Origin: Oscillospiraceae bacterium
Lineage (GTDB): Bacteria > Bacillota > Clostridia > Oscillospirales > Ruminococcaceae
Direction of reading: 5' to 3'
Length of the DNA: 5,334 nt
NCBI GenBank assembly: GCA_902362965.1
Contig: CABIYQ010000035.1
Location: 1 to 5,334, forward strand
The notes under the pieces were generated by a model. The model was not told the DNA's origin. It saw only the letters and a list, made by a program, of their open reading frames with translations, and did not search any database. Each line of letters opens with the position of its first letter. The stretch's first letter is position 1. Below are positions 62-5,334 of the stretch, in pieces. The position numbers were made by a program, and so were the translations under genes.

Positions 62-3000
62 ATGGAATTCAGAAGAATAAGAGAAATAAAAGAATCTGTC
101 AAATCCGAAAAAGAAAAGCTTTCCGATACTCAGTACTGGCTGAAATTTTTGCAGACATCTTCTTACCACTACAAGCATTCATTTGACGATCAGATAATGA
201 TCAATCTGCAAAACCCTCAGTTTACTGCATGTTCGGACGCACGTTCATGGCGAAGTCTCAGCCGTGAGCCGCAGGGACACGGTGTTCCTACATTACATAA
301 CGGAAAAATACGTTATTTATTTGACATCACCCAGACGTCCACACCGGAAGGTACTCCCCTGCCTTGGATCTGGGAAATCAATGACAGTCAGCTGAATATT
401 GATTACAGCGAATCAGTTTCCAAACATCTAACTGAGAAATATAATCTGGATTCTGAAACTCTGGAGGAACAGCTATATGATATTACTCTTATGCGTACGG
501 CAAAGTATTCAAATGATGATAAATCAGACTTATACAAAGTAGTTGCAGAATCTGCCGCATATTCTTTACTTTACCGCTGCTGTCCGGGAGAAGCACAGCC
601 ATCACCCAAAAACCTTACCGGATTAAGTAAATATCCGATTGAAGAAATTGGACAGGCTGTAACAGAAATTTCAAAAAGTATTTTTCTTGAAATTGAAAGT
701 ATTGTAAGAAACACAAGGCATAATGCAATTGAAGAAATCAGGAGGAACGAACATAATGAAACAAGAGAAAATGATAGACGGAGTGAGACACGTTCTGAAC
801 CCCAAGACAGGGGAATATCTTCCGGATACGGAAATCTTAAAGGGATGGACGTACGTTCTGGACGAGGAGAATTTCCGGTATTATCCGATTTATCTGAGGG
901 AAGTTCCTATAGATCAGATATCGGATCAGGAAAGGAAAGAATTTCTGGAGATGGTAGCAGAATCGGAAAGACAATCGGCGGAGGAAAAAGAGATTCTGGG
1001 ATTCACGGAAGCGGAATTCGACATAGTACCGGAAGAAATGAGAGAGAATTATTACAAGACGGCATTGGGGTACTGGAAACCGATTCCGGAGGAACTTCTT
1101 CAGGAGATCCCTCACGGGAAGTACGTAACAATGCGCAGGAATTATCTTCTCAATCAGAATCCCAAGGAATTTATATGGCTGAAAAACAGCGATCAACTGA
1201 ACAAACATCTGACAGCCATCAATCTTCAGGCACACGAAATGGAAGATATAATAGTGGAAAAACTCAAGGAGAACAGTCCGGAATACAAAGAAGCGGAGAA
1301 TCAGGGAGATTACCTGAAAACAGTACAGCTTCAGAACAGTTTTCTGAAAACAGCAGAGGAAGAAATTCTGACAGAACTGATATACAAATAATCGGCAATA
1401 CTCCGTACAGATACATTCCGCAAAAGACTTACAGAAAGTATGATACCGATATTGCTGCTAAAATTGCTGATAAGCTTGGGGAAAGCGGAATAAAATTCTC
1501 CGGTAAAATTGCCGGAGAAACAACAACTATTACAGTCAGCAAAGCTGATATTGAACGTCTGGAGGAGATTGCACACAGCTTTACAGCTGAAAAAGAAAAA
1601 TTCGCCATTGGCGAATTGAGTAAATCTGTCACGGAATTGTCCGAACATAGGAAAATTAAAGAAAATCCAATGGATAGGGCTATCCGGTTAATCAATGAAT
1701 ACTGTGAAAAAGAATTTGGCTCTCCTGGTAACTTTTCAAATATGGATCACATTGAACTGGCATATAAACCGGATGAGGAAACCGGTCTTGCAGGTATTGA
1801 AGCTTATGCCGATCTTGAAACATACCGTATCGTAAAAGAACAGGATGGTAGAGTCGTTGATGAACAGCTTTTTAATTCTCTTGATCATATGAATACTGTT
1901 CTTAAAAATCTTGATTTTGACAAACTTATTGAATTGTCAGATAATGATAAATCTGAAATAAAAACTACTGTCTTTGAAAACACAGAAAAGAAATCTCCAG
2001 ACGTTTCTGAATTATCTGTAGGCGATGTGATTCTCTATGACGGTAAACGCAGAGAAGTTGAACAGATCAGTGAAAATAGTATCAGCCTGAAAGACCTTGA
2101 CGCTCCCGATTTCGGCGGCATTCTGCTCGGTACTTCCGATGTACTTGCATATAACGGCTGGCAGCAGGATATGAATGAAAAGGGATTTGAAATTCTGTCA
2201 AAAGCTGCGCCGCAAATTACATCAAAAGATCACCAATATGTACCGTCACAGCTTTCTCTGTTCGGAGAACCTGTAGTTTATGAATCTGACGCAGAAGAAA
2301 AAGCAATCTATGCAGCTTTAATGAGAGGCAGCGGATTTCAGGACGGTAAATTCCGTATTGAAGAATTCTGTAAAGAAAGCCACTCTATAAATGAACTTGC
2401 CAAAATGCTTAAAGACGAGTACGGTACAGGCGGTCATTCGGGAAATGAATTTTATGCCTTTGCAAATCACAATTCAAAAGGCATTGAAATTATTCTTAAC
2501 CGTAAGTATGACAATGAGGAGGGCAGAAAAATTTATCTTTCCTGGAAAGAAGTCGCTGAAAGAATTTCAGAACTGGTATCCAAAGGCGAATATATTACCA
2601 AAGCCGATATAGATGACCGTATATATCATGCAAAATACATTTTGAAATACTACGATTCAAATAATGAATTCGATAAACCTTACATAAAGAAAGCAAAGAA
2701 TACCCTTAAAGAATACGGCATTTTATCTGAAAACAATGAAAGCAATAAGGTCATACCTGAATCTGAAATAACATTTACAAAACCTGTTAATAATTCCGAT
2801 TTAAAAAATAATATTGAAGAATCAGATGCAAAAAATCCTGAAGAAAATAACAAGCCAGATGTTCCGCAGAAGATTACTGTAGGTGACAGATTTCGTCATA
2901 AGATTACGGGTAATATAAGCGAAGTTGTTTCTCTGACAGGCGCATTTCCGTGGATAACCGACGAATGTACGGTCACAAGGGACAGCGGCGTTTTTTCTGT

Positions 3001-5334
3001 CACTGAAAATATCTCATACAACCAACTGCTGAACAGCGATCTTTATGAATATATCGACCATACTGACAGAACCGTTGAACAAGCTAAAAAATCTATGAAG
3101 TCTGACATGAAAATTGAAAACTTCAAAATTACTGGTGATTTTATCATCGAAGGCGGCGCTAAATCGAAATTCAAGGCGAATTCCGAAGCTATCAGAACGC
3201 TGAAAATGATTGAAAAGGAAAATCGACCTGCAACACCGGAAGAACAAGTAATACTTTCCAGATACGTTGGCTGGGGCGGATTGTCCGCCGCTTTTGATTC
3301 AAAAAATGAACAATGGTCTGCGGAATATTCAGAGCTCAAAAATCTCCTTACTGACGAAGAATACAATGCCGCACGTGCTTCAGTTCTTGATTCCTTTTAT
3401 ACTCCCCCGTTCATTATTGAATCAATATATTCGGCTCTTGAAAATATGGGTTTTCACGGTGGTTCTGTTCTCGATCCTTCTACAGGCACAGGAAATTTCC
3501 TCGGTAAAATGCCGGGATCAATGTCAGACAACTCACGTATTTACGCAGTTGAAAAGGACAGCGTTTCTGGCCGCATTGCAAAGCTTCTTTATCCTGATGC
3601 TGACATTCAGATCACCGGCTTTGAAAAGCGTGACTTCTCAGACAATTTCTTTGACGTCGCTGTAGGCAACATTCCTTTCGGAGGTTTTAAAATTTCAGAC
3701 CGCAGATATGACAAATACAATTTTGCGGTCCATGACTATTTTATTGCAAAAACTCTGGACAAGGTACGTCCGGAAGGCGTAATCGCTTTTATCACTTCTT
3801 CCGGTACTCTTGACAAGGCTAATCCGTCGGTAAGAAAATACATTTCTCAGCGTGCGGAGCTACTGGGCGCTGTCAGACTGCCAAATAATGCTTTCAAATC
3901 CTATGCGGGAACGGAAGTCACCTCCGACATTATTTTTCTCCGGAAACGTGAAAAAATGATAGATATTGCGCCCGATTGGGTGTATACCTCAAAAAATCCA
4001 GACGGTCTTGTACTCAACAATTACTTCATTGAAAATCCGGAAATGATTTTAGGAAAAGTTGTGGAGGGAAACAAGCTTTACGGCAAAGGTACTATGGTTG
4101 TTCCTTTTGAAAATTCCGATCTTAAAGTTATTTTAAATGAAGCGGTAAAGAAAATAAAAGGAAATTATACCGCTGAAAAGTCTGTTATTGCAAAACCCTC
4201 CGGAAAGAAAAAGGATAAATTTAAACCTGAAATTCTTCCTGCCGATCCGACGGTCAAAAATTTCTCATACGCTGAAATTGACGGTAAAATATTTTACCGT
4301 GAGAATTCTATTATGACTGAAATCCCGTTTACCGGAAAGAGATACGAGCGTGTAAGCGGAATAGCCGCTATTTCAAAATGCGTCCGTGAACTGCTTAATA
4401 TGCAGCTTGAGGGTTACTCGGACGAAGCTATTATTTCAAAGCGTACAGAACTGAATCAGCTTTATGATGATTTCACAAAGAAAAACGGATTATTAAATGA
4501 TAAAACCAACAGAGACATTTTCCGTGAGGACGTTTCACTTCCCCTTGTTCTTTCACTGGAAAAGGTCAAGGACGGCAAGCTTATCGGTAAAGCGGATATT
4601 TTTACAAAACGTACATTACAGCCTCCTGTAAGGATAACGCACGCTGATACCGCCGCAGACGCTCTTGCCGTTTCCATTTCTGAAAAAGCAGGCGTCGACC
4701 TTGATTTCATGTCCGAACTTATGGACGGAAAAGAAAAAAGTGAAATAATTTCAGATCTTAAAGGCGTTATTTTCTTAAATCCTGAAACGTCTGCATGGGA
4801 AACCGCAGACGCATATCTTTCCGGAAACATCAGAAACAAACTTGCCGTTGCTAAGAGTGCAGCTGAAGCAAATCCTGATTTTACTGAAAATGTTTCCGCC
4901 CTTGAAGCCGCCATGCCAGACCGTATCGAAGCAGGAGATATTACGGCTAAGCTCGGTTCTCCCTGGATAGACGATAAGTACATTCAGGAATTTATGTATG
5001 AGCTTTTTGAAACCCCGAAGTTCTCCCGTAATCTGGGAATAGACAATAATTACATAGGAATTCAGCATAACCCTGCAACTGCTAAATGGAATGTTATGAA
5101 TAAGTCTCTTGATAAGGATAATATCAAGTCTAATACTGCATACGGTACGTCCCGAAAATCCGGATACAGCATTTTTGAGGACAGTCTTAACATGATCGAT
5201 ACTACCGTTTACGATCCTGTTTACAATCCTGAAAAGGATAAAACAGAATACGTGATAAATCATGATGAAACTCTCCTTGCACGTCAGAAACAGGAGCTTA
5301 TTGAAAACGCTTTCCGTGAATGGATATTCAAAGA
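62..5334 (+). CDS. Large polyvalent ArdC-like / N6-DNA-methylase / (SNF2 helicase) protein, 3' truncated by window
   Basis: One uninterrupted frame of 1,757 codons plus two bases, with no stop before the window ends. I recognise the huge protein carried by Clostridial integrative/conjugative elements, usually annotated as SNF2 helicase or DNA methylase. Residues 20-215 resemble the ArdC-like N-terminal domain (FDDQIMINLQNP at 41-52, RYLFDI at 84-89, W102/W104). Residues 220-443 are an S/G/R/E/N/D-rich linker. Conserved modules follow at 444-510, 535-626, 650-716, 730-845 and 937-1000. The methyltransferase domain carries YVGWGGL (1068-1074), FYTPP (1112-1116), motif I DPSTGTGNF (1138-1146) and motif IV NIPFG (1203-1207). 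Residues 1394-1757 match the family's post-methylase region up to REWIFK, after which relatives continue into a Walker-A ATPase not visible here. Full length is probably over 2,400 residues. Presumed cytoplasmic: no signal peptide or membrane segment is seen. Family identity is from memory of relatives; the mechanism is inferred. Confidence 0.93.
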   Translation, partial: MEFRRIREIKESVKSEKEKLSDTQYWLKFLQTSSYHYKHSFDDQIMINLQNPQFTACSDARSWRSLSREPQGHGVPTLHNGKIRYLFDITQTSTPEGTPLPWIWEINDSQLNIDYSESVSKHLTEKYNLDSETLEEQLYDITLMRTAKYSNDDKSDLYKVVAESAAYSLLYRCCPGEAQPSPKNLTGLSKYPIEEIGQAVTEISKSIFLEIESIVRNTRHNAIEEIRRNEHNETRENDRRSETRSEPQDRGISSGYGNLKGMDVRSGRGEFPVLSDLSEGSSYRSDIGSGKERISGDGSRIGKTIGGGKRDSGIHGSGIRHSTGRNERELLQDGIGVLETDSGGTSSGDPSREVRNNAQELSSQSESQGIYMAEKQRSTEQTSDSHQSSGTRNGRYNSGKTQGEQSGIQRSGESGRLPENSTASEQFSENSRGRNSDRTDIQIIGNTPYRYIPQKTYRKYDTDIAAKIADKLGESGIKFSGKIAGETTTITVSKADIERLEEIAHSFTAEKEKFAIGELSKSVTELSEHRKIKENPMDRAIRLINEYCEKEFGSPGNFSNMDHIELAYKPDEETGLAGIEAYADLETYRIVKEQDGRVVDEQLFNSLDHMNTVLKNLDFDKLIELSDNDKSEIKTTVFENTEKKSPDVSELSVGDVILYDGKRREVEQISENSISLKDLDAPDFGGILLGTSDVLAYNGWQQDMNEKGFEILSKAAPQITSKDHQYVPSQLSLFGEPVVYESDAEEKAIYAALMRGSGFQDGKFRIEEFCKESHSINELAKMLKDEYGTGGHSGNEFYAFANHNSKGIEIILNRKYDNEEGRKIYLSWKEVAERISELVSKGEYITKADIDDRIYHAKYILKYYDSNNEFDKPYIKKAKNTLKEYGILSENNESNKVIPESEITFTKPVNNSDLKNNIEESDAKNPEENNKPDVPQKITVGDRFRHKITGNISEVVSLTGAFPWITDECTVTRDSGVFSVTENISYNQLLNSDLYEYIDHTDRTVEQAKKSMKSDMKIENFKITGDFIIEGGAKSKFKANSEAIRTLKMIEKENRPATPEEQVILSRYVGWGGLSAAFDSKNEQWSAEYSELKNLLTDEEYNAARASVLDSFYTPPFIIESIYSALENMGFHGGSVLDPSTGTGNFLGKMPGSMSDNSRIYAVEKDSVSGRIAKLLYPDADIQITGFEKRDFSDNFFDVAVGNIPFGGFKISDRRYDKYNFAVHDYFIAKTLDKVRPEGVIAFITSSGTLDKANPSVRKYISQRAELLGAVRLPNNAFKSYAGTEVTSDIIFLRKREKMIDIAPDWVYTSKNPDGLVLNNYFIENPEMILGKVVEGNKLYGKGTMVVPFENSDLKVILNEAVKKIKGNYTAEKSVIAKPSGKKKDKFKPEILPADPTVKNFSYAEIDGKIFYRENSIMTEIPFTGKRYERVSGIAAISKCVRELLNMQLEGYSDEAIISKRTELNQLYDDFTKKNGLLNDKTNRDIFREDVSLPLVLSLEKVKDGKLIGKADIFTKRTLQPPVRITHADTAADALAVSISEKAGVDLDFMSELMDGKEKSEIISDLKGVIFLNPETSAWETADAYLSGNIRNKLAVAKSAAEANPDFTENVSALEAAMPDRIEAGDITAKLGSPWIDDKYIQEFMYELFETPKFSRNLGIDNNYIGIQHNPATAKWNVMNKSLDKDNIKSNTAYGTSRKSGYSIFEDSLNMIDTTVYDPVYNPEKDKTEYVINHDETLLARQKQELIENAFREWIFK
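119..706 (+). other. ArdC-like N-terminal domain of the large protein
   Basis: Residues 20-215 contain the sequence pattern at the front of ICE polyvalent proteins: YHYKHSFDDQIMINLQNP, a conserved W (63), RYLFDI (84-89), PLPWIWEI around 100-106, a helix VVAESAAYSLLYRCC (160-174) and a final helical segment ending near 215. ArdC-type domains bind single-stranded DNA and protect incoming plasmid DNA from restriction. I see no HExxH zinc-protease motif in this segment, so only the N-terminal binding part seems present. Assignment rests on pattern recall, not on a profile search. Confidence 0.7.
740..745 (+). promoter_or_regulatory. Internal Shine-Dalgarno AGGAGG for the nested gene
   Basis: A canonical AGGAGG lies inside the coding sequence of the large gene, 10 bases before the ATG at 756. 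In the large frame these bases encode part of the EEIRRN segment. This strong site decides the nested start: the earlier in-frame ATG at 723 has only a weak AAGG upstream. It implies independent initiation on the shared mRNA. Confidence 0.75.
756..1391 (+). CDS. Nested TnpV-like protein, wholly inside the large gene in the +1 frame
   Basis: A 211-residue frame from ATG 756 to TAA 1389-1391 lies entirely within the large gene, shifted by one base. The protein is rich in K, E, I, Y and L and looks helical and soluble, unlike the low-complexity sequence the same DNA gives in the large frame. The C-terminal half resembles TnpV, a small transposon-associated family of unknown function: GKYVTMRRNYL (121-131) corresponds to GKYGRMRKRYL, LNKHLTAINLQAHEM (148-162) to the LN.HL..I..QA.EM helix, and the last residues ELIYK (207-211) to the family's terminal ELIYx. 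TnpV proteins are, as I recall, about 110-130 residues, so this one carries an extra N-terminal part; GEYLPD (19-24) may match the Y.(I/L)P(D/N)L start of the family. A strong AGGAGG sits 10 bases before the start. Co-expression with the large gene is expected. Role unknown: neither a transposase motif nor a zinc ribbon is visible. Confidence 0.8.
   Translation: MKQEKMIDGVRHVLNPKTGEYLPDTEILKGWTYVLDEENFRYYPIYLREVPIDQISDQERKEFLEMVAESERQSAEEKEILGFTEAEFDIVPEEMRENYYKTALGYWKPIPEELLQEIPHGKYVTMRRNYLLNQNPKEFIWLKNSDQLNKHLTAINLQAHEMEDIIVEKLKENSPEYKEAENQGDYLKTVQLQNSFLKTAEEEILTELIYK
1391..1591 (+). other. Conserved alpha/beta module of the large protein after the linker
   Basis: Residues 444-510 run NTPYRYIPQKTYRKYDTD, then a helix, GIKFSGKI, and TTITVSKADIERLEEI. 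This short module recurs in polyvalent proteins of conjugative elements as I remember them, in the form NTPYR.I..K.Y.K.DTD...FSG......T.TVS..D. Its function is unknown. It begins at the codon that overlaps the nested gene's stop. Confidence 0.55.
1496..1519. repeat. Stem-loop with 8-bp GC-rich arms
   Basis: TTCTCCGG (1496-1503) and CCGGAGAA (1512-1519) are exact inverted repeats around an 8-base loop, 105 bases after the nested stop. There is no following T-run, so it is not a usual terminator. An 8-bp pairing of this kind is roughly what chance allows in 5 kb. Confidence 0.3.
1599..1617. repeat. 19-base palindrome with 9-bp arms
   Basis: AATTCGCCA (1599-1607) and TGGCGAATT (1609-1617) are perfect inverted repeats about a single central base (1608). 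It lies in coding sequence (KFAIGE) with no adjacent promoter. It could be an operator-like site, a hairpin or chance. Confidence 0.4.
1664..1939 (+). other. Second conserved module (LPD-like) of the large protein
   Basis: Residues 535-626 contain MDRAIRLINEYCEKEFGS, HIELAYKPDEETG, an alternating strand segment (IEAYADLETYRIV) and SLDHMNTVLKNLDFDKLIELS. This resembles one of the 'large polyvalent protein-associated' small domains that sit between catalytic modules in such proteins. I cannot say which numbered family. No catalytic residues are evident. Confidence 0.5.
2009..2209 (+). other. Small beta module 1 of the large protein
   Basis: Residues 650-716 begin ELSVGDVILYDGKRREVEQI and continue as short strands ending near FEILSKA. 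The VGD-x(2)-Y-DGK pattern suggests an SH3/KOW-like beta barrel. A second, related-looking copy lies at residues 937-1000. Confidence 0.45.
2249..2263 (+). other. QLSLF pentapeptide, candidate sliding-clamp-binding motif
   Basis: Residues 730-734 of the large protein are QLSLF, an exact match to the bacterial beta-clamp (DnaN) binding consensus QL(S/D)LF. It sits between the beta module and the next folded segment, after a polar stretch (ITSKDHQYVPS) and before GEPVVYESDAEE, so it is probably exposed, as such motifs need to be. Clamp binding here is inferred. Confidence 0.5.
2264..2596 (+). other. Conserved pre-methylase segment of the large protein
   Basis: Residues 735-845 include an acidic helix (DAEEKAIYAALMRG), a helix FCKESHSINELAKMLKDEYG, then GTGGHSGNEFYAF and YLSWKEVAERISELVSKGEYI. 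Relatives carry the same pattern (helix, K..YG.GG, a strand pair, then SWE..A.RI..L...G.(Y/F)) ahead of their methylase domain. Function unknown; a polar linker rich in N/E/K follows (846-936). Confidence 0.5.
2870..3061 (+). other. Small beta module 2 of the large protein
   Basis: Residues 937-1000 begin KITVGDRFRHKITGNISEVV and end in YNQLLNSDLYEYI. As in the earlier module (650-716), the segment opens with a VGD turn and alternates short strands, suggesting a repeated accessory barrel just before the methylase. Confidence 0.45.
3149..3955 (+). other. N6-adenine DNA methyltransferase domain of the large protein
   Basis: Residues about 1030-1298. The AdoMet-binding motif I is DPSTGTGNF (1138-1146), preceded by FYTPP (1112-1116), the usual 'motif X' region of gamma-type adenine methylases. 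Motif IV is NIPFG (1203-1207), where the classical (D/N)PP(Y/F) has its first proline replaced by isoleucine. The domain continues with YDKYNFAVHDYF, GVIAFITSSGTLDK and AGTEVTSDIIFLRKRE (1282-1297). Expected reaction: transfer of a methyl group from AdoMet to adenine N6, probably to protect element DNA. Activity is inferred, since N-x-P-F is kept but the motif is non-canonical. Confidence 0.85.
4241..5334 (+). other. Post-methylase region leading into the helicase (truncated)
   Basis: Residues 1394-1757 follow the family pattern: ADPTVKNFSYAEIDGKIFYREN, a helical CVRELLNMQLEGY..., LYDDFTKKNGLLN, DIFTKRT, AVSISEKAGVDLDFMSEL, GVIFLNPE, ADAYLSGNIRNKLA, LEAAMPDRIEAGDI, a PWIDDKYIQEFMYEL segment, YGTSRKSGYSIFEDSLN and LIENAFREWIFK. 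In relatives the sequence then reaches the Q-motif and Walker A of an SNF2-type ATPase, which lies outside this window. The region has no recognised catalytic motif of its own. Confidence 0.75.
4281..4300. repeat. Perfect 20-base palindrome inside the large gene
   Basis: ACGGTAAAAT (4281-4290) is followed directly by its exact reverse complement (4291-4300), with no spacer. The bases encode part of DGKIFYRE, a conserved protein stretch, so the symmetry may be incidental. Flanking bases do not extend it. Confidence 0.45.

Follow-up and report, generated by a model that had tools for sequence, protein, structure and literature searches.

A conserved tnpV gene lying one frame ahead within a giant methylase-helicase gene

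In bacteria, long genes nested on the same strand are considered rare. An earlier note on the window (the whole stretch of 5,334 nucleotides analysed here) described a complete open frame in the +1 register of a large gene that itself stays open, with an AGGAGG and an ATG of its own, and took both for real genes. The sequence bears out this arrangement (Table 1), and the locus raises the question of whether both frames are genes and in what sense each is maintained.

Table 1. Coordinates of the features in the window
Feature	Position	Strand	Remarks
Host gene, cut by the window end	62..5334	+	Open frame from 62 to 5332, 1757 codons; ArdC-like N-terminal domain, linker, adenine-methylase region
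Host N-terminal domain, ArdC-like fold (predicted)	62..754	+	
Host linker (tnpV DNA read in the host frame)	755..1390	+	Stop-free, hydrophilic; no amino-acid-level conservation detected in relatives
Nested tnpV gene	756..1391	+	ATG at 756, TAA at 1389-1391, 211 aa, host frame +1
TnpV Pfam domain	1101..1382	+	Residues 116-209 of the nested protein, PF14198, 50.9 bits
AGGAGG, candidate ribosome-binding site of nested tnpV	740..745	+	10 nt before the ATG at 756

The nested protein and its host

We identified the nested protein as a member of the TnpV family by profile search (PF14198, E 1.7e-13, 50.9 bits against a cut-off of 27), as had been proposed from its residues alone. Pfam returned no matches for the host frame over 756-1391 or for the antisense open reading frame, in agreement with the claim that these readings are unrecognisable, and NCBIfam returned none for the nested protein. 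The nested open frame has an alternative start at 723, but the AGGAGG belongs to the one at 756. Four full-length relatives of the nested protein are 59-98% identical to it; a search of viral contigs confirmed no kin. An AlphaFold model of TnpV reached a pLDDT of 88 and a pTM of 0.56, and a PDB search with this model gave no matches at E ≤ 0.001. Its resemblances to choline-binding repeats, toxin repeats and lambda integrase were weak matches and are not trusted.

The host resembles the ArdC-methylase-SNF2 ‘polyvalent’ proteins. It carries the predicted ArdC-like N-terminal domain by which polyvalent or DarB-like proteins are recognised, and the second hallmark, an adenine methylase with an SNF2 helicase, is present in its relatives. 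Specifically, N6_Mtase, SNF2-rel_dom and Helicase_C all score above cut-off in the complete relative L044, and relatives of the window host (99%, 2309 aa) carry PF00176, which is precomputed in P0011. In the window host itself, the Eco57I methylase match reached 22.2 bits, below the cut-off of 25.3, and the helicase part falls past the window end; complete relatives run on into the SNF2-type helicase. Viral contigs searched with host residues 1-443 and with the N-terminal part of L044 yielded no confirmed relatives. Some relatives (such as P0018, P0025 and P0059) contain an extra block of about 250 aa right after host residue ~519 (window position ~1618), which the window lacks. In genome G001, shorter ArdC-N-like genes of about 1000-1100 codons lie ~3-4 kb upstream of three hosts.

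Distribution and annotation of the nesting

A Pfam TnpV search over 196 genomes from the class of Hungatella hathewayi (G001) gave matches in 76 (72 above cut-off). We examined 139 of the 150 matches listed; left out were 10 fragments and G077:C216:33561-33869, later shown to be a nested copy over which the host frame stays open. With nested defined as lying wholly within an open frame of at least 400 codons, 46 of these 139 matches are nested, all with TnpV in host+1 and none in host+2, whereas 92 are standalone and one is intermediate, in a 162-codon frame. The 46 copies are phylogenetically clustered and do not represent independent events, and their lack of stops is partly a matter of definition because they were selected by an open host frame.

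A fairer count comes from a search with the host domain, blind to tnpV and to the length of the host frame, in which single matches reaching profile position 250 were counted (n = 57) and scoring was limited to 12 candidates in G001, G026, G027, G049, G077, G091 and G180. Among the matches listed, 55 of the 57 are followed by a TnpV-like frame in host+1, so that the suspicion of widespread nesting proved correct. These comprise 45 from the TnpV-first nested set and 10 recognised by a custom nested-TnpV profile; five of the 10 are diverged (L193-L197, 24.8-42.1 bits with that profile) and the others are in G055, G077:C216, G062, G017:C5 and G039. Three tnpV copies are partial: that of G062 is cut by the contig end, that of G017:C5 ends after 78 codons and that of G039 has 93 codons. 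The host frame has a stop inside tnpV in one of the 55 (G055), and 46 of the 47 hosts with at least 1000 open codons carry tnpV. The exceptions are G077:C68 (L191), where the host is intact but lacks tnpV and has a much shorter linker between its two modules, and G109:C207, in which the lack of tnpV is uninformative because the contig stops 201 bases past the domain.

Outside the 57, three loci matched in pieces or in part also carry tnpV (G137, G196:C66 and G049:C28). Weak two-piece domain matches without tnpV were found at G153:C1:606511-607404 (1013 codons, domain mid-protein) and G159:C3 (598 codons), of which at least the former is a protein of another layout. Many further matches, all to shorter proteins, are confined to the initial third of the domain. 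In a second sample, host residues 1-443 of the window were searched against 398 genomes, with at most 4 matches taken per genome. Among the matches listed, 25 of 27 loci (in 16 genomes) carry TnpV, always in host+1; 6 loci were already known, and 19 of the 21 new ones are nested. The gene is lacking in L216 and in L217, whose host frame spans just 260 codons.

Several loci depart from the common layout. A short linker joins the ArdC-like domain to the methylase side in L191 and L216 (G338:C5). In G055:C50 (L092 / L200) the nested frame is intact though the host frame is broken in the first part of tnpV. In G077:C216 (L060) a single ArdC-like domain is followed by two tnpV-like frames; the first is nested, the host frame stopping just past it, and the second is standalone downstream.

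The same nesting occurs in a plasmid of Cohnella herbarum (Bacilli) and in Subdoligranulum and Monoglobus records. The TnpV relative P0007 (59% identical) and the host relative P0071 (47%) can be written as overlapping readings with compatible codons over a run of 92 residues and at 162 of 213 positions overall, against a longest run of 6 in 20 shuffles. Likewise, a TnpV-like +1 reading is possible for each of the linkers of P0065, P0071, P0076 and P0126, with scores of 435-550 against at most 223 in six shuffles each. The strings that the earlier note had described from linkers of large proteins, as out-of-frame readings of a TnpV motif, are real: opposite G-K/R-Y-x-x-MR-x-x-Y/F-L in the TnpV frame, host L038 reads GQVRQDEENLPE, host L083 reads RQIRTDAEEIPQ and host L041 reads GQVRSDEERVSE.

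The same note had suggested that annotation hides one gene of the pair, and the records bear this out. In RefSeq NZ_OY725736.1 (Monoglobus), tnpV is annotated and the host, an SNF2 protein, is listed only from 1.9 kb downstream, although the host frame is open for 2559 codons without a stop. The gene table for Cohnella, which is that of PLSDB and is incomplete and omits pseudogenes, contains tnpV and an antisense open reading frame, and the host is absent. That antisense frame (L155:7214-7777) is annotated as a hypothetical protein over the host; this call is likely spurious, at a place where the table lacks the host. A search of 5.8 billion predicted proteins gave 7 clusters of window-type TnpV that cover at least 72% of the query, none of them from a contig longer than 1837 bases; host residues 1-520 have 499 relatives, with contigs of up to 243 kb among the 120 matches listed. 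Gene callers seem to keep one of the pair and to clip or drop the other. For the records checked, this indicates a fault of annotation, and both the number of TnpV proteins and the N-terminal half of large proteins of this kind are therefore likely to be misreported elsewhere.

Two kinds of unusual TnpV fragments turned up among the predicted proteins. P0008, P0009 and P0010 are lipoprotein-like genes whose products terminate with the final 55 residues of window-type TnpV; their contigs reach 15 kb, and the tail is probably a recombination remnant of the 3' end of the nested gene. In P0005 and P0006, on short contigs, TnpV from residue ~60 onward is fused to another protein (PF19864 listed), either as an assembly chimera or as a real insertion.

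Constraint, translation and origin

Selection was estimated with a simplified version of an overlapping-gene method on 16 homologous pairs of relatives (60-95% identity, 1849 codons), picked by a greedy procedure that used no sequence twice; none of these pairs includes the window, and L040-L044 and L041-L045 nearly repeat each other. Within the overlap, the TnpV frame had an omega of 0.39 (0.36-0.44), compared with 1.28 (1.12-1.46) in the host frame. Standalone tnpV gave 0.31, with 1.15 for its unused frame (33 pairs), and the host frame gave 0.40 upstream of the overlap (unused frame 1.16; 16 pairs) and 0.42 downstream of it (unused frame 1.14; 15 pairs). Resolved by host codon position, the 8 closest pairs pass from a third-position excess upstream to a first-position excess inside tnpV, and the third-position excess returns immediately past the tnpV stop. 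Across relatives, constraint moves from the host frame to the +1 frame at one border of tnpV and returns to the host frame at the other. Purifying selection on the nested frame, on which the proposal of two real genes depended, is thus present in relatives; the other half of that proposal needs qualification, as the host frame is not equally constrained at the amino-acid level.

The openness of both window frames exceeds chance under codon permutation. When the synonymous codons of the nested protein were permuted, the host frame acquired 11.2 stops on average and was open in none of 500 trials; when host codons were permuted, the nested frame acquired 5.0 on average and was likewise never open in 500. 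Under a weaker control based on host-gene codon usage, the nested frame was open in 8%. In nested relatives, the host frame was open in 0.09% on average when TnpV was re-coded with host codon usage and in 7.7% on average when its own codons were permuted. The nested frame was open in 4.8% when host codons were permuted and in 20% on average when the host was re-coded by codon usage; given this last, weaker control, an open nested frame is by itself poor evidence where copies are short.

The host frame bears a constraint of a different nature. The same frame of 85 standalone tnpV genes contains 7.1 stops per 100 codons, and its hydrophobic residues amount to 29%, compared with 13% in the host linker and 31-34% in the host flanks. 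The linker is thus kept free of stops and hydrophilic while its sequence drifts. In relatives, both frames are open and under selection, as is characteristic of same-strand nested genes, with selection at the amino-acid level in the nested frame and confined to stop avoidance and composition in the host frame.

The lack of amino-acid-level selection on the host frame would also be expected if the locus comprised three adjacent genes, namely an ArdC-like gene, tnpV and a separate downstream methylase-helicase, with the host frame across tnpV untranslated. The Monoglobus record is annotated nearly so, with tnpV followed 1.9 kb on by the SNF2 protein, and a host without the tnpV stretch exists. 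We nevertheless consider this arrangement improbable: an untranslated frame would gather stops at a rate like that in standalone tnpV, whereas one of 55 host frames is interrupted; it would be open by chance as rarely as the re-coding and permutation controls indicate (0.09% or 7.7%); and it would have no reason to be unusually hydrophilic, or, in Monoglobus, to be open across all 2559 codons.

For the start of the nested gene, we scanned for runs of AGGAGG bases 4-12 nt before a start, and background draws took the best of as many starts. A run of at least 4 bases precedes a start in all 46 nested relatives, a match that is weak by itself because 43% of background draws show it too; runs of 5 or more occur in 29 of 46, compared with 8% of background draws. 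In 45 of 46 the start chosen was an ATG, and GAAAGGA followed by nine bases and the start is found in 33. The ribosome-binding motif noticed in the window therefore has counterparts in every nested relative. These signals bear on programmed frameshifting, which would make TnpV part of a fusion with either the ArdC-like part or the methylase, with no free TnpV, and could also yield a switch of constraint to +1 and back at the borders. We regard frameshifting as very unlikely, given the Shine-Dalgarno-like motif before the start of nested copies, the near-universal ATG, the single steady distance in 33 of 46, the stop codon that nested copies possess and the standalone tnpV genes, which yield the same kind of protein without fusion. 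That the nested frame is a decaying, unused passenger, left by chance insertion of tnpV in the host linker, is least credible of all: the G017:C5 copy stops at 78 codons and its host is broken as well, but the nested omega (0.39) is close to that of standalone genes (0.31), tnpV is conserved across hosts, and the TnpV frame is intact beside the broken hosts L092/L200 and L060.

We are therefore confident that a giant methylase-helicase gene, its front domain predicted to be ArdC-like, entirely encloses a conserved tnpV gene set one frame ahead, and that two proteins are likely made. We propose that ribosomes on the host frame pass through tnpV, reading it as a hydrophilic linker without stops, and that TnpV would be started internally at its own Shine-Dalgarno site and ATG. 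The host gene may have been extended through tnpV, or fused across it, between the ArdC-like and methylase modules. Entanglement offers a plausible reason for upkeep, in which tnpV would travel with the large protein; it could not be lost cheaply because an indel in tnpV would break the large protein too.

The shared place, phase and host domain argue for a single, ancient origin of the nesting. In a TnpV tree of 111 columns and 132 rows, whose bootstrap had not settled and which fixes neither root nor direction, nested and standalone copies are interleaved, with at least 12 changes, 7 of them forced by starred branches. Five standalone copies (L105, L106, L109, L114 and L119) fall within a nested clade with starred support. 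Among 10 neighbouring proteins from six standalone loci, we found a large serine recombinase near L106 and L109, and no recombinase among the tested neighbours of L061, L064, L073 and L113. Given these five copies, two of them near a large serine recombinase, we infer that some nested copies later escaped into standalone genes.

On balance, we favour a broader reading, held with less confidence, in which a giant anti-restriction family borrows a linker of more than 100 residues from the out-of-frame reading of tnpV, one stretch of DNA giving a small folded protein as well as a disordered spacer. The arrangement would be ancient, shared by Clostridia and Bacilli, and would tether tnpV to the element while serving as the source of some transposon tnpV genes.

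Relation to known systems

Same-strand nested genes are known from comS inside srfA and Rz1 inside Rz, in which, as here, a complete out-of-frame inner gene has its own start. The present case differs in that the nesting spans a mobile-element protein family, in Clostridia and at least one Bacilli plasmid, and in that, within the overlap, all that is maintained of the host frame is its openness and hydrophilic character. The inner frame encodes a recognised protein family, conserved across hosts down to ~20% identity, so that the origin, persistence and translation of the overlap are directly testable. In the freely accessible literature searched, we found no report of a nested tnpV among the portions available.

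Passages of an account of Tn4451-type mobilisable transposons describe TnpV as an ordinary separate open reading frame and postulate that it acts in excision, by likeness to Xis (PMC3158075). The nested protein scores above the cut-off of this family; unlike the genes in those passages, it lies wholly inside another gene and bears an N-terminal extension of ~115 aa. According to parts of the work on polyvalent or DarB-like proteins of conjugative elements, these protect incoming DNA from restriction (Iyer et al. 2017, PMC5512222); neither ‘TnpV’ nor ‘overlapping’ occurs in its main text. The host shares with the DarB-like methylase-SNF2 dyad described there an ArdC-like N-terminal domain, an adenine methylase and an SNF2 ATPase, and differs from the polyvalent proteins of those parts in that a portion of its polypeptide is the out-of-frame reading of another gene.
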